DNA of 60,818 bases. Origin: Verrucomicrobiota bacterium. GTDB lineage: Bacteria; Verrucomicrobiota; Verrucomicrobiia; Opitutales; UBA953. Made by a program: the position numbers and the translations under genes. The notes under the pieces were generated by a model. The model saw nothing but the letters and a program-made list of their open reading frames with translations, ran no database searches and was not told where the DNA came from. Position 1 is the first letter of the stretch. Every line of letters starts with the position of its first letter. The stretch is from positions 1 through 60,818 of the forward strand of contig JAURJZ010000080.1 in the NCBI GenBank assembly GCA_030831965.1. Reading direction: 5' to 3'. Positions 3,315 to 9,678 of this stretch are shown here, piece after piece.

Positions 3315-3346
3315 GAGACAGCGGGCAAGGTCCCGGGTTGCGGCGG

Positions 3347-5878
3347 CTAGCGCCACTCGTGCCGGGGATAGCGGCCGCGGAGGTCCTTGCGGACCTGCTC
3401 GTAGGAGCCTTTCCAGAAGGCGTCGAGGTCGGTGGTCCTCTGGACGGTGCGGCGGGCGGGGGACTGGATGCAGACGACAAGGGGGACGCGTCCGCCGCAG
3501 ACGCGGAGGCGGGAGCCGGGGACGTCGTAGAGTTCCTGGACGGTGGCCTCGATCTCGGCGGTGCCGTCGGGGTTGTAGGTGATGCGGGCGGGGTGCTTCC
3601 TGCGGGGGAGCTCGAGGCGCTCGGGGCACTGGGAGTCGAGGGCGAGGGCCTGCTCATGGGTGAGCCAGCCGCGGACGCTGGGCATGACGGGGCGGTCGCG
3701 GATGTCGCGGTGCGAGGTGGCGCCGGCGCAGACCTCCTCGATGACGAGGCGGCGGGCGGCGTCGTCGAAGGTCGGGATGGCGAGCTCGGGGGCGTGGCGG
3801 GCGAGGAAGTTGGCGCGGGCGATCCAGGCGTCGACGGCGGCGTCCCACCGGTCGAGGGCGAGGCGGCCGGCGACGACCTCGGCGGCGAGGAGGCGGCTGG
3901 CCTCGTCGGAGGGCGCGTCGTCGCGCTCCCTGGACTCGAGGACGAGGTCGCGGAAGCGGCGCTCGACGCGGGTGACGACGCGGCGGAGGGCCGGGTCGTA
4001 GCGGGGCGCGGCGACCTCGTGGAAGTCGCCGGGGAAGAGGTCGCGGAGCCAGGCCTCCTCGACCGCGGTGGCGAGGGCGAGGAGGGTGACGACCTGGCCG
4101 CGCACCTGCACCTCCTCCATCTCGGCGGCGACGAGGAGGCGGGCGTCGCGGACGCAGGTCTCGCGGCGCAGCTCGCCCTTGCGGCCGTGGGCGACGGCGC
4201 AGCGGAGGGTGCCGGCGTCGAGGCGGACGGCGATGCGGTCGGAATGGCCGAGGAGGAGGCAGCGGCGGACGGCGTCGGGGTCGGCCGGCGGCGTCTCGGT
4301 GGGCAGCCCCTGCCCGCGGGCGATGCGGAGGAACTGCTGGGCGGCGCGCTCGGCCTCGCGGGCGCCCTGGGCGTGGATGCCGAGGCGGTCGCAGGCGTCG
4401 GGATCGAAGCGGAGCTCGGCGGCGCGGGCGAGGAGGGCGAGGCGCAGGTGGAAGTCGGACCCCGGCGGGCAAGTCACGGCGTCGCGCGCGGCCTCCACCG
4501 AGGCGTCGACGTTGCGCAGGAGGATGTCCCTGCCCTGCTCGAGGCCGGCGATGCGGGCGACCTCGGGGACGCAGGCGAGCTCGCCGGCGGCGAGGAGCAT
4601 GCGGGCGAGGCGGGGATGGGCGGGGAACGCGGCCATGCGCCGGCCGAGCGGGGTGATGTCGCCTTCCGCACCGAGGGCGCCGAGGTCGGCGAGGGTGGCC
4701 CGGGCGCGCTCGACGGCGCGGGGCTCGGGCGGCTCGAACCAGGGGAAGTCGGCGGCGTCGCCCCAGCCGCCGGCGCGGAGCAGGAGGAGGGTCTCGCAGA
4801 GGTCGACGCGGCGGATCTCGGGGGTTTGGCGGGCGGGTCGGGCCTCGTGCTCGGAGCGGGACCAGAGGCGGACGCAGCGGCCGGGCCCGGTGCGGCCGGC
4901 GCGGCCGGCGCGCTGCTCGGCGGAGGCCTGGGACACGGGCTCGGTCAGGAGGGTGTCGATGCCGCGGACAGGGTCGAAGCGGGCGACGCGGGCGAGGCCG
5001 GCGTCGACCACGGCGCGAATGCCGGGGAGGGTGAGGGAGGTCTCGGCGACGTTGGTGGCGACGACGACCTTGCGGGTGTCGCCGGCGCGGACGGCGCGGT
5101 CCTGCTCGTCGGCGGGCAGGTCGCCGTGGAGGGGGAGGAGGTCGACGCCGCGGCACTCGGGCGCGTTGCGGAGGAGGCCGAGGGTGCGGCTGATCTCGTG
5201 GGCGCCGGGCATGAAGACGAGGATGTCGCCCGCGGGTTCCTCGCGAAGGAGCCGGCGCACCTGCTCGGCGGCGGGTTCCCAGGGCCAGCGGCCGGCGACC
5301 TTGGGGGTGGCGACGTTCTCGATGGCGACGGGATGGGCGCGGCCGTCGGCGGCGAGGGTGACGGCGTCGCCGAGCCAAGCGGCGAGGGTGTCGGTGTCGA
5401 GCGTGGCGGACATGGCCACGAGGAGGAGGTCGGGCCGCTCGGCGGACTGGAGGCGGCGGGCGAGGGCCAGGGCGACGTCGGCGTGGAGGTTGCGCTCGTG
5501 GAACTCGTCGAAGACGACGGCGCCGACGCCGCGCAGGGCGGGGTCGGCGGCCATCTGGCGGAGGAGGAGGGCCTCGGTGACGAACTTGATGCGGGTGGCG
5601 GCGGACTCGACGCGGTCGAAGCGGATCTGATAGCCGACCTCGTCGCCAAGGCGGCCGCCGCGCTCGGCGGCGATGCGGGCGGCGAGGAGCCGGGCGGCGA
5701 TGCGCCGGGGCTGGAGGACGACGACCTGGCCGTGGACGAGGCCGAGGTCGACGAGCATCTGGGGAACCTGGGTGGACTTGCCGGAGCCGGTGGGGGCGCG
5801 GAGGACGAGGCGGCGGGTGCGGGCGCAGGCCTCGCGGAGGGGCTCGCGGAGAGCCTCGATGGGGAGGCCGGAGCTCAT
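3347..5878 (-). CDS. hrpB: ATP-dependent RNA helicase HrpB
   Basis: A DExH-box helicase of 843 residues, the normal HrpB size. It has the Walker A loop APTGSGKST at 28-36, the DEFH box at 124-127 followed by ERN, motif III SATLDT, motif [12 protein letters not shown], and motif [14 protein letters not shown]. The C-terminal HrpB-specific region follows ([31 protein letters not shown], then [19 protein letters not shown] at the extreme end). The molecular target of HrpB is poorly defined in bacteria. It overlaps the upstream phosphoesterase gene by four bases (ATGA), which suggests coupled translation. Confidence 0.95.
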
Positions 5879-6327
5879 CGGACGTCGAGTTCGACGATCT
5901 CGGCGGCGGGCTCGCCCGGACCGAGGGTGAGGATGGCCACCGTGACGGGGAGGCGGAAGCGGCGGGGGCCGGCGGAGCCGGGATTGACTCGGAGGGGGCC
6001 GGCGGCGTCGCGGCGGACGAGGGGTTGGTGGGTGTGGCCGGTGACGACGATGTCGGGCCGGTGGGCGGGCTCGTCGACGGCTCGGTGGCCGTGGTGGAGG
6101 AGGATGCGGAAATTGCCGGCGAGGTGGACGCGCTCGAGGGGGAGCGCGGGGAGGTCGTCGCAGTTGCCGGCGACGGCGACGGTCGGGGCGAGGTCGCCGA
6201 GGACGTCGAGCAGGTCGGCCTCGCCGATGTCGCCCGCGTGCAGGATGGCGTCGCACCCCTCGAGGGCGACGAGGGCCTGCGGGCGCAGGAGCCCGTGGGT
6301 GTCCGCGATCAGGCCGATGCGCGTCAT
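5875..6327 (-). CDS. YfcE/MJ0936-type metallophosphoesterase
   Basis: A 150-residue calcineurin-like phosphoesterase. The metal-binding motifs are in order: ADTHG near the N-terminus, HAGDIG, AGNCDD, LLHHGH and TGHTHQP, followed by NPGSAGPRR, which is typical of the YfcE family. Relatives hydrolyse phosphodiesters in vitro, but a physiological substrate is rarely known. ATG start at 6327. It sits between dnaX and hrpB, overlapping hrpB by four bases. Confidence 0.9.
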   Translation of the reverse strand: MTRIGLIADTHGLLRPQALVALEGCDAILHAGDIGEADLLDVLGDLAPTVAVAGNCDDLPALPLERVHLAGNFRILLHHGHRAVDEPAHRPDIVVTGHTHQPLVRRDAAGPLRVNPGSAGPRRFRLPVTVAILTLGPGEPAAEIVELDVR

Positions 6328-6337
6328 GGCCTCGGGC

Positions 6338-7858
6338 TCAGCGCGGGCGGCGGAGGGCGCCGGGCTTGAGGGGACGCAGCTGGGAGAACTCCGCGCCGAG
6401 GGATTCCTTGAGGCGGGCGCGGACGCCGGGGGGGATGGCGCCGAGGGCTTGGTCGAACTCGGGTGTGCCGGGGCGGGCGGGCGGCGTCTCGGGAACGGCC
6501 TTGGGTGCGGACGCGGTCGACGGCTCGGGCCAGGCCTCGGCGGGAGGCGCGTCGAAGGCCTCCCCCGTGTCGAGCGCCTCGTCGGGCGGGCCGTCGGAGA
6601 CGGGCTGGCTTGCCGCCTCGGCGCGGGGGGCGGGCGGCGTCGGGGCGGGCCTGGCGGGCGAGCCCGCGGGAGGCGGGGTCCCTATTTTTTTTTGGCCGGG
6701 CTCCCGGGGGAGTCCGTTGGCGGCGGCGCTGAGGTCGCGGATGAGCGCGTCGACGGATCGGTGTCGGGTCTGCTCGGCGGCCTTGAGGAGGGTGACCTCG
6801 AAGACGGCGCGGGGGGAGAGGCCGTGGCGGAGGGAGGCCTCGGCCTGCTGGAGGGTGTCGAGCATGCGCACGAGCGTGTCGGACCCGAGCTCGGCGCCGA
6901 GGCGGGCGCTGCGGCCGCCGGAGCGGGCGGCGTCGAGCATGGCGTCGCGGACGTGGGACTGGAGGTCGGCGTGGATGCGGAGAAGGTCGCGCCCGTCGGC
7001 GTGGAAGCGGTCGGCGAGGGCGAGGAGGGCGGGCGCGTCGGCCTTGGCGAGGGCGGCGGCGAGGTCCTGGAGCTCGCGCGCGGAGGCGAGGCCGTAGATG
7101 TCGAGCACGTCCTTCTCGGCGACCTTCTTGCCGGCGAAGGCGATGATCTGGTCGAGGATGGACTGGGAGTCGCGCATGCCGCCCTGGGCGAGGCGGGCGA
7201 TGGCGAGGAGGGCCTCGCGGTCGGCCTGGATGCCGTCGGCCTTGACGATGGCCTCGAGGCGGTCGGCGATGAGCGCGTCGGGGATGGGCTGGAACTCGAG
7301 GCGCTGGCAGCGGGAGACAATGGTCTCGAGGACCTTGTCGGACTCGGTGGTGGCGAAGATGAACTTCACCCAGGGCGGGGGCTCCTCGATGGTCTTGAGG
7401 AGGGCGTTGAAGGCGTCCTTGCTCAGCTGGTGGACCTCGTCGATGATGAAGACCTTGAACCGGCCGGCGGGGCGGACCTGGCAGGCCTCGCGGATGGACT
7501 TGGCGTCTTCGATGCCGCGGTTGGAGGCGGCGTCGATCTCGACGACGTCGAGGTAGGACCCCTGCTCGATCTCGCGGCAGACGGGGTCGTCGGGGTCGAA
7601 GTCGGCCTTGGGGCCGCCCTCGCAGCAGAGCGCCTTGGCGAGGATGCGCGCGGTGGTGGTCTTGCCGGTGCCGCGGGGCCCGACGAAGAGGTAGGCGTGC
7701 GCGATGCGGCCGCCGCGGATGGCGTTGCCGAGGGTGCGGACGATGTGCTGCTGGCCGACGATCTCGCCGAAGGCGCGGGGGCGCCAGCGGCGGGCGATGA
7801 CCTGGAAGGCGGGTTCGGGCACTGGCCGGAGCGTGGCGCGGGCGGGGGCGGGTGTCAA
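6338..7858 (-). CDS. dnaX: DNA polymerase III subunit gamma/tau
   Basis: The clamp-loader ATPase of the replicative polymerase. The product is 506 residues. The AAA+ core has YLFVGPRGTGKTTTA (Walker A 60-67), FIIDEVHQLS (Walker B), FATTE (sensor 1) and the clamp-loader SRC motif in IVSRCQRLEF. The zinc site is degenerate: only the outer cysteines (C78/C79 and C94) of the usual four remain. After the conserved core a Pro/Ala-rich linker starts right at a run of nine A residues (codons 389-392), the position where other bacteria produce the short gamma form. The listed start is TTG; a GTG at 7822 would remove 12 residues and still leave the conserved AFQVIARRWRP start. Confidence 0.93.
   Translation of the reverse strand: MTPAPARATLRPVPEPAFQVIARRWRPRAFGEIVGQQHIVRTLGNAIRGGRIAHAYLFVGPRGTGKTTTARILAKALCCEGGPKADFDPDDPVCREIEQGSYLDVVEIDAASNRGIEDAKSIREACQVRPAGRFKVFIIDEVHQLSKDAFNALLKTIEEPPPWVKFIFATTESDKVLETIVSRCQRLEFQPIPDALIADRLEAIVKADGIQADREALLAIARLAQGGMRDSQSILDQIIAFAGKKVAEKDVLDIYGLASARELQDLAAALAKADAPALLALADRFHADGRDLLRIHADLQSHVRDAMLDAARSGGRSARLGAELGSDTLVRMLDTLQQAEASLRHGLSPRAVFEVTLLKAAEQTRHRSVDALIRDLSAAANGLPREPGQKKIGTPPPAGSPARPAPTPPAPRAEAASQPVSDGPPDEALDTGEAFDAPPAEAWPEPSTASAPKAVPETPPARPGTPEFDQALGAIPPGVRARLKESLGAEFSQLRPLKPGALRRPR
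6685..6693 (-). promoter_or_regulatory. A9 slippage/frameshift site in dnaX
   Basis: The dnaX message reads GGC CAA AAA AAA ATA GGG here, a run of nine A in an otherwise strongly GC-rich gene. Loss of one A, gain of two, or a +1 ribosomal shift puts TAG (6684-6682) directly after the lysine codons and ends the protein at residue 391, which would be a gamma-like form. A gain of one A or a -1 shift stays open for over 100 codons as far as I can read. Thermus thermophilus dnaX is the known precedent for transcriptional slippage on A9. Confidence 0.65.
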
Positions 7859-7868
7859 CGGCCCCGGC

Positions 7869-9419
7869 TCACTCCCACTCGATGGTGGACGGCGGCTTGG
7901 AGGAGATGTCGTAGACGACGCGGTTGAAACCCTTGACCTCGTTGATGACGCGGGAGGAGACCTTGCGGAGGAAGTCGTGGGGGAGGTGGGCCCAGTCGGC
8001 CGTCATGGCGTCGGACGAGGTGACGGCGCGGAGGGCGCAGACGTGGTCGTAGGTGCGCTCGTCGCCCATCACGCCGACGGTGCGGACGGGGAGGAAGACG
8101 GCGAAGGCCTGCCAGACCTTGTCGTAGAGGCCGGAGGCGCGGAGCTCGTCGATGAAGATGGCGTCGGCCTGGCGGAGGACGTCGAGGCGCTCGCGGGTGA
8201 TCTCGCCGCAGACGCGGACGGCGAGGCCGGGGCCGGGGAAGGGGTGGCGCCAGACCATCGGCTTGGGTAGGCCGAGGGCCTCGCCGAGGGCGCGGACCTC
8301 GTCCTTGAAGAGCTCGCGCAGGGGCTCGAGGAGGCGGAGCTTCATGCGCTTGGGCAGGCCGCCCACGTTGTGGTGGCTCTTGATGGTGGCGGCGGGGTTG
8401 CCGTCGATGGCGACGGACTCGATGATGTCGGGGTAGAGGGTGCCTTGGGCGAGGAACTCGACCTTGCCGCGGCGGCGGATCTTGGCGACCTCCGCGTCGA
8501 AGACGCGGATGAACTCGTGGCCGATGATCTTGCGCTTGCGCTCGGGGTCGGTGACGCCGCGGAGCTTGCGCAGGAAGCGGTCGGAGGCGTCGACCACGCG
8601 GAGGTCGACCTTGAAGCGGCCGCGGAACATGCGCTCGACCTGCTCGCGCTCGCCGAGGCGGAGCAGGCCGTTGTCGACGAAGACGCAGGTGAGCTGGCGG
8701 CCGACGGCCTTCTGGATGAGGGCGGCGGCGACGGAGGAGTCGACCCCGCCGGAGAGGCCGAGGATGACGTGGGACTTGCCGACCTGGGCGCGGATCTGGC
8801 GGATGGCGGCGCCGGCGTAGTCCTCCATCACCCAGTCGGGGCGGCAGCGGCAGATGCGGAAGAGGAAGTTGCGGAGGATGTCCATCCCGCGCTCGGAATG
8901 GGCGACCTCGGGGTGGAACTGGATGCCGTAGAAGCGCCGGGCGGCGTCCTGCACCACGGCGTGCTCGGAGTTCTCGGTGCTGGCGACGGCCCGGAAGCCC
9001 CGGGGCAGCCGCGCGACCTTGTCGCCGTGGGAGTTCCAGACGCGGAGGGGGCCGCGGAGGCCGTGGAGCAGGTCGGAGCCGGCGCGGAAGCGGAGGGTGC
9101 CGTGGCCGTACTCGCGGTGGGCGGACGGGGCGACCTTGCCGCCGAGCATCTCGCCCATCAGCTGGACGCCGTAGCAGATGCCGAGGACGGGCACGCCGAG
9201 GGCGAAGACGGCGGGATCGGGGCGGGGCGAGCCCTTGGCGCGGACGCTGGCGGGGCCGCCGGAGAGGATGACGCCGCGGACGCCGTCGGCGCGGAGCGTG
9301 GCGGCGTCGACGCCGAACGGGTAGATGCGGGAGTGGACGCGGCACTCGCGGATGCGCCGGGCGATGACCTGGGTGTACTGGGACCCGAAATCGAGGACGG
9401 CGATGGTCTGGTTGGCCAT
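7869..9419 (-). CDS. guaA: GMP synthase (glutamine-hydrolysing)
   Basis: Converts XMP to GMP with ATP and glutamine, the last step of guanine nucleotide synthesis. The 516-residue product has the class I amidotransferase domain first ([10 protein letters not shown], the nucleophile elbow GICYGVQLM, then GIQFHPEV). The PP-loop ATP pyrophosphatase follows ([16 protein letters not shown]), then the dimerisation domain with the conserved end [21 protein letters not shown] at 9419 fits the family start [12 protein letters not shown]; the longer open frame upstream is the shadow of the zinc-ribbon gene. It lies ten bases before dnaX. Confidence 0.97.
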
Positions 9420-9444
9420 GGGGAGGAGGGGAGGATGGGGGCGT

Positions 9445-9678
9445 TCAGAAGCGGAGGCGAACATTGTTCGCCCCGCAGCCCGGGCAGGGGGCCTCCTCGC
9501 GGAGGCGGGGCCGGGAGTAGGTGCGCCCGCAGCGGGTGCAGGCGAAGGCGGAGCGGAGGCGGCGGGGGTCGGCGAGCAGGGCCTCGCGGCGGTCGTACCA
9601 CACCCAGGCACCGAGGAGGAGGGCGCAGCCCAGGCCGGCGACGAGGGCGAGGAAGGTTCCGAGCTCAACGGGGATCAT
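9445..9678 (-). CDS. Small membrane protein with zinc ribbon
   Basis: A 77-residue protein of unknown function. An N-terminal transmembrane helix (about residues 7-28, ending [11 protein letters not shown]) is followed by a two-knuckle zinc ribbon, C47-x2-C50 and C65-x2-C68. It lies between rplQ and guaA, on the same strand and 69 bases after rplQ, so it may be cotranscribed with the alpha operon. The intact cysteine pairs and fit to the gap support a real gene. I recognise no named family. Confidence 0.7.

Follow-up and report, generated by a model that had tools for sequence, protein, structure and literature searches.

The dnaX gene in the window, the whole stretch of 60,818 nucleotides of Verrucomicrobiota DNA that was analysed, carries a run of nine A residues that is probably a site of programmed transcriptional slippage. 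Stimulated by a hairpin in the RNA, the polymerase would leave out one base in part of the messages, and the gene would yield gamma from A8 transcripts beside tau from A9. The original prediction had proposed slippage giving gamma beside tau, and this stands as the best reading, supported by the runs of the relatives and by the alternation of the frame written in their genomes. The signs that point to it are the run itself, the stop behind it, the hairpin of the family, the alternating genomic frame, and a common tail. The hairpin, the alternation across the order and the reading of the conserved stop as the mark of a one-base deletion go beyond the original prediction. The coordinates of these features are collected in Table 1.

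Table 1. Features of the dnaX locus (positions in the window)
Feature	Positions	Strand	Source or remark
dnaX in the tau frame, 506 aa, start codon TTG	6338..7858	minus	ORF finder; TIGR02397 dnaX_nterm, 375 bits
Clamp-loader core as a whole	6767..7756	minus	Pfam
delta2/AAA+ domain, residues 35-192	within 6767..7756	minus	PF13177
ATPase lid, residues 197-243	within 6767..7756	minus	PF22608
gamma/tau domain III, residues 246-364	within 6767..7756	minus	PF12169
Hairpin in family register (RNA)	6697..6716	minus	7 pairs, one A-C mismatch; loop 6705-6708
Spacer of 3 nt between hairpin and run	6694-6696	minus	
GGAG in 3' arm of hairpin, possible internal Shine-Dalgarno element	6701..6704	minus	
A9 slip site (putative)	6685..6693	minus	
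TAG that closes gamma when the run has lost one A or gained two	6682..6684	minus	
Tau-specific tail, C-terminal motif LGAEFSQLR common to relatives	6338..6684	minus	without Pfam match

The A-run in dnaX and its rarity

The nine A residues lie on the minus strand, at the place in dnaX given by the original prediction. From codon 388 the gene reads GGC CAA AAA AAA ATA GGG, and the run begins in codon 389, 25 codons past the end of domain III (residue 364), beyond which no Pfam match was found in dnaX. These borders agree with the predicted placement between the clamp-loader core and the tau tail.

Translated in silico, the gene gives 506 residues with A9 (tau), 391 residues ending in GQKK with A8 (gamma), 392 residues with A11, and 511 residues with A10. 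In the last case ~120 codons are open past the run, with an unrelated sequence. The two products expected earlier (a gamma closed by TAG after the loss of one A, and the longer tau) were reproduced in this way, and so was the -1 frame said to be open for more than 100 codons. Since the deletion frame meets its stop at once, A8 fits as the useful transcript. The E. coli type of -1 ribosomal frameshifting, here on A AAA AAA, is hardly credible: the gene is the same, Lys codons are present, and a Shine-Dalgarno-like GGAG lies upstream, but the frame that such a shift would enter is the one left open for ~120 codons, and the 60 nt downstream of the run give no structure signal (z of -0.35 for the six sites of the window's genus, g1, against mononucleotide shuffles). 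On these two points the earlier preference for slippage over such a shift is upheld.

The gene is flanked on the minus strand by a Metallophos_2 phosphoesterase (5875-6327) and, judged by eye, by genes that resemble a GMP synthase (7869-9668) and a DEAH-type helicase (3347-6256). An open frame of 1529 codons runs on the plus strand (3338-7927), antisense to dnaX and the neighbouring genes, and is probably a by-product of the high G+C content.

The window has no other stretch of at least 7 A or 7 T residues, and for AAAAAAAA 0.02 occurrences are expected from shuffles. In the 1,851,602-base assembly, with both strands counted, the dnaX run is the sole A9, against an expectation of ~0.14 calculated from the A and AA frequencies of the window; nine A residues are indeed exceptional in this DNA, as had been claimed. 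Each of the six g1 genomes contains exactly one A9 (strands pooled), which therefore is the dnaX site, while the composition of the dnaX locus would give 4-13 of them in four of the six. In the sister genus g5 a single A9 is present in 33 of 55 genomes. The four family genomes without a dnaX match contain no A9 (G035, G048, G075) or three (G072). The g2 genomes have 9 to 41 A9 matches, a longer run being counted more than once, and the g4 genomes (G016-G023) have 24 to 568, with over 100 in six of the eight, again with repeated counting of longer runs. The avoidance of long A-runs seems to be relaxed in g4, unlike in the window's genus.

Conservation of the run and variation of the genomic frame

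The comparison of dnaX across relatives that had been proposed with the original prediction found the run kept. In g1 it is A9 at the same codons in all six genomes, followed by TAA or TAG, although the G+C content of the dnaX loci as fetched ranges from 0.50 to 0.745. In the family (79 genomes, four of them without a dnaX match) all 75 dnaX sites read with A8-A11, namely 61 with A9, 10 with A10, three with A11 and one with A8; the sister genus g5 has A9 in 48 of 51 sites. Beyond the family, 43 of 46 distinct sites from 18 families of the order carry A9-A13, and no A-run of 7 or longer was found at the other three (L125, L127, L153). These 46 sites were chosen from 207 matching genomes (L118 and L122 are one gene, and L118 was dropped); the families f6, f7, f13, f18, f19 and f25-f28 lay outside the sample. 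In the class outside the order, a run near the boundary was found in none of 20 sites, taken from the best-scoring places listed. A motif pattern scan of the genome contigs returned 98 stretches, of which 64 adjoin a DnaX match and 33 do not, while L259, at a contig end, reads as dnaX. To judge from the relatives' sequences, the A9 is no assembly error.

In three g5 assemblies (L068-L070) the run is A10 or A11 within an otherwise A9 context, which would put tau off the genomic frame; this could be drift tolerated by slippage, or an assembly error. These three could also be taken to speak for a contingency tract, phase-variable at the level of DNA, or for a run without function. Such an explanation is very unlikely in view of the constancy of A9 in g1 and g5 and of its avoidance elsewhere in the g1 genomes.

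Directly after the run, the deletion frame has TAA or TAG in 6/6 sites of g1, 47/50 of g5 and 7/9 of g2. The stop of the insertion frame, ~120 codons away in the window species, is often reached within 2-28 codons in relatives. The distance to the stop in the third frame has a median of 11 codons for the 72 sites with a hairpin and 4 for the 45 others, with phylogeny ignored, so the link between longer distances and hairpin sites is suggestive only.

The frame written in the genome is that of tau in all six g1 sites, in 47 of the 50 g5 sites assessed and in eight of nine g2 sites; with a single exception, these tau-frame sites have an immediate stop in the deletion frame. Elsewhere the genome holds the gamma frame. 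There tau requires a one-base deletion in five of eight g4 sites, in all four f17 sites and in two f20 sites (L115, L150), and a one-base insertion in f11, f14, f24, f3, f4 and the three run-bearing f21 sites. Genus g4 by itself shows all three frame states (L075 with others, L076 with L079, and L086). A DnaX tree, for which 108 rows were kept after g5 had been thinned, requires 14 or more changes of frame state for the 85 sites. The tau frame was set by the longest-frame rule, except for L007, L008 and L073, where it was set to frame 0. Whichever frame is written, the tau tail ends in related motifs in many families (LGAEFTALR in g5, FRAKFIAVKR in f14, FKGSLTQVRH in f11); the motif was not found in the last 45 residues of f17 or L067. 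The tail of L067 is short and looks as if frameshifted inside.

The alternation of the genomic frame between tau and gamma fits slippage of RNA polymerase better than ribosomal frameshifting, because a site of ribosomal shifting would need to change its direction again and again, which a polymerase making transcripts of several lengths need not do. From opposite shift directions in one gene, the GeneTack authors, in the part of their paper that was available, likewise inferred transcriptional realignment (PMC3711429).

The upstream hairpin and the proposed mechanism

A hairpin of 7-10 bp, ending 1-3 nt 5' of the run, is predicted in the window's family and in some others. A common pairing register was found in g1, g5, seven of nine g2 sites, f20 and f23, with 9-10 of ten pairs formed in g5, 8-10 in the fitting g2 sites, f20 and f23, and 7 in g1. 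The hairpin of the window species has an energy of -10.0 kcal/mol in this register. Taken by itself, this species gives no significant hairpin (p = 0.24 with synonymous shuffles and 0.095 with windows of the gene as the reference); L074 was excluded from these single-site energy tests. No hairpin in the register was found for L077 (A11), L143 (A13) and many A10 relatives, and g3 and g4 have different hairpins close to the run.

For covariation, 27 distinct sequences were used, picked for fitting the register (without f1 g3, g4, L077, L080, f16 and the A10 families). In this set 87.8% of the cells are paired, against 84.3% in shuffles, and covariation scores 0.165, compared with 0.125 (sd 0.009) in shuffles, none of which reached the observed value in 500 trials. 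Eight cells are changed on both sides, which 2/500 shuffles match; the number of pairs changed on both sides (3) and the number of pair types are not above shuffles, being reached in 98/500 and 479/500, respectively. When the partner arm is slid, pairing falls to 17-51%.

As pairing is already favoured by the peptide GLPxExGQKK, stability in windows of ten codons was tested against synonymous shuffles. In 41 genomes less than 90% identical (without L073, L077, L089, L090 and the groups lacking the register hairpin), the three windows whose last codon is 388, 389 or 390 reach z values of -8.5, -8.8 and -11.7, respectively, and are the fourth, second and first most stable of 372, where z assumes independence and the ranks do not. 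The windows ending at codons 381-386 have strongly positive z values, from +5 to +9. A second stable RNA window (z -8.6, third lowest of 372) covers codons 364-373, at 6740-6769. Of 385 windows scored for synonymous conservation, the five highest fall at the site. Four of them contain the A codons; the fifth in rank covers upstream codons only and scores 0.68 (the gene mean being 0.49), although its codons 382 and 384 are below that mean. As read from these alignments and foldings, the hairpin is preserved in the family beyond the protein constraint.

A terminator formed by hairpin and run is rejected by the anatomy, since on the coding strand the hairpin is followed by A residues and on the other strand the T-run comes before the hairpin. 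A scan of positions 6200-7900 with Rfam gave no known frameshift element, only one chance match far below the cut-off.

The preservation of the hairpin bears on whether it has a role. In plain slippage of the Thermus type, the A-run alone would slip both ways. The A10 relatives without the register hairpin keep two frames too, and for slippage on the Thermus A9 no need for structure has been demonstrated. We nevertheless regard this explanation as unlikely, given that a hairpin is preserved exactly here beyond what the protein demands and that, in the window species, the insertion frame runs for ~120 codons before a stop. A relation of the hairpin to the direction of the shift is suggested by the sites where tau is off the genomic frame: 15 of the 16 deletion-type sites have a hairpin near the run, as do 11 of the 24 insertion-type ones (Fisher p = 0.002, with phylogeny ignored and the cut-off chosen after the energies had been seen). 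Among four independent pairs, agreement with this relation was seen 1.7 times and contradiction never, which is too few to count.

The 3' arm of the hairpin contains GGAG in all six g1 and all 50 g5 sites. Together with the re-pairing allowed by AAA then AUA, this makes programmed +1 ribosomal frameshifting possible: when AAA occupies the P site and AUA the A site, the tRNA-Lys would re-pair one base forward and the stop would enter the A site, stimulated by the refolding hairpin or by GGAG. In the accessible part of one paper, upstream hairpins and internal Shine-Dalgarno sequences are described as stimulating +1 shifts on 70S ribosomes (PMC6321510). A ribosomal +1 shift is compatible with the g1 and g5 sites but improbable on the whole, because relatives keep a hairpin without the GGAG-like sequence (0/1 in g3, 0/8 in g4, 0/1 in f23, 3/6 in f20) and the direction needed for tau or gamma flips among relatives, even inside g4; moreover, 9-13 A residues would exceed the need of such a shift.

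In hairpin-stimulated slippage of the polymerase, the copying of nine A residues would make the RNA-DNA hybrid consist wholly of weak rA:dT pairs; the hybrid measures 9-10 bp according to the available text of PMC5009743, a length matched by A9. The hairpin would fold just behind this hybrid and favour the slipping of the RNA forward by one base, so that part of the messages would have A8. Normal translation of an A8 message would meet the stop right after the run and give gamma of 391 residues, and A9 messages would give tau of 506. We infer that the slip occurs during transcription, that deletion is the useful direction and outweighs insertion, that the hairpin drives the deletion, and that both tau and gamma are made. 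The insertion sequence IS1447 slips both ways about equally, and therefore a bias towards deletion is not given by the anatomy alone.

More broadly, it is quite possible, though we put it at a little under even, that a housekeeping gene here uses a nascent-RNA hairpin for a mainly one-way one-base deletion at a set rate to obtain two replication proteins, and that run length, hairpin and genomic frame trade off against one another across the order, which would thus form a natural series. Hairpin-driven polymerase slippage has been described, in the sources at hand, for insertion sequences; if it also acts at a conserved site in dnaX, it would count among the normal means by which cells set a protein ratio. 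The order would offer a comparative test of slippage direction, with and without a hairpin, from A8 to A13, and with tau or gamma in the genomic frame. For annotation, gene callers see one of the two dnaX products, and a dnaX whose genomic frame is that of gamma would be taken for a truncated gene.

Comparison with known systems

In E. coli, dnaX gives the same two products by a -1 ribosomal frameshift with a downstream stem-loop, at the level of translation. The shift proposed here is opposite in direction and is preceded, not followed, by the predicted structure.

Slippage in Thermus dnaX, A10 dnaX genes with two frames and hairpin-driven slippage in insertion sequences are already known, as far as the sources could be consulted. 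Among open-licence papers we found none on slippage or frameshifting in dnaX of Opitutales, although the A10 figure of GeneTack may include members of the order, nor, in the accessible portions of that literature, a mention of a hairpin preceding the slip site in dnaX. The closest case by gene is Thermus thermophilus dnaX, where slippage occurs on A9 (Larsen et al. 2000, as reported in PMC1088944 and PMC5009743), one or more A residues are gained, and stops lie in both other frames. As in the present gene, A9 is near the gamma/tau boundary, the genomic frame is that of tau, and gamma arises from an altered number of A residues. Going by these reports, Thermus mainly gains A residues, whereas here the conserved immediate stop is in the deletion frame, and the insertion frame of the window species, unlike that of Thermus, is open for ~120 codons. 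A hairpin precedes the run here; for Thermus this comparison is with the published description only. The A10 dnaX genes that GeneTack lists with two reading frames (PMC3711429) are of the same type as the A10 relatives in the order, where tau needs a shift, and no hairpin is mentioned for them in the available part of that paper.

By mechanism, the closest parallels are insertion sequences. In the Roseiflexus IS630 element, a hairpin adjacent to the slip motif on its 5' side leads to transcripts lacking one base (Penno et al. 2015, as summarised in PMC5009743). The position of the hairpin and the usefulness of a one-base deletion are alike; according to that summary, the element differs in having a T5C5 motif, in being mobile and in having been demonstrated by experiment, whereas the present case concerns a putative slip site of A9 in a housekeeping gene. 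In IS1447 of Clostridium thermocellum, A9 follows a predicted stem-loop, as here, and A8 transcripts give the full product. From the accessible text, 9 of 52 cDNA clones had A8 and 8 had A10, with neither in 30 genomic clones (PMC6211511). Unlike in the present proposal, A8 and A10 are thus about equally frequent in IS1447, where a role of the stem-loop is putative.
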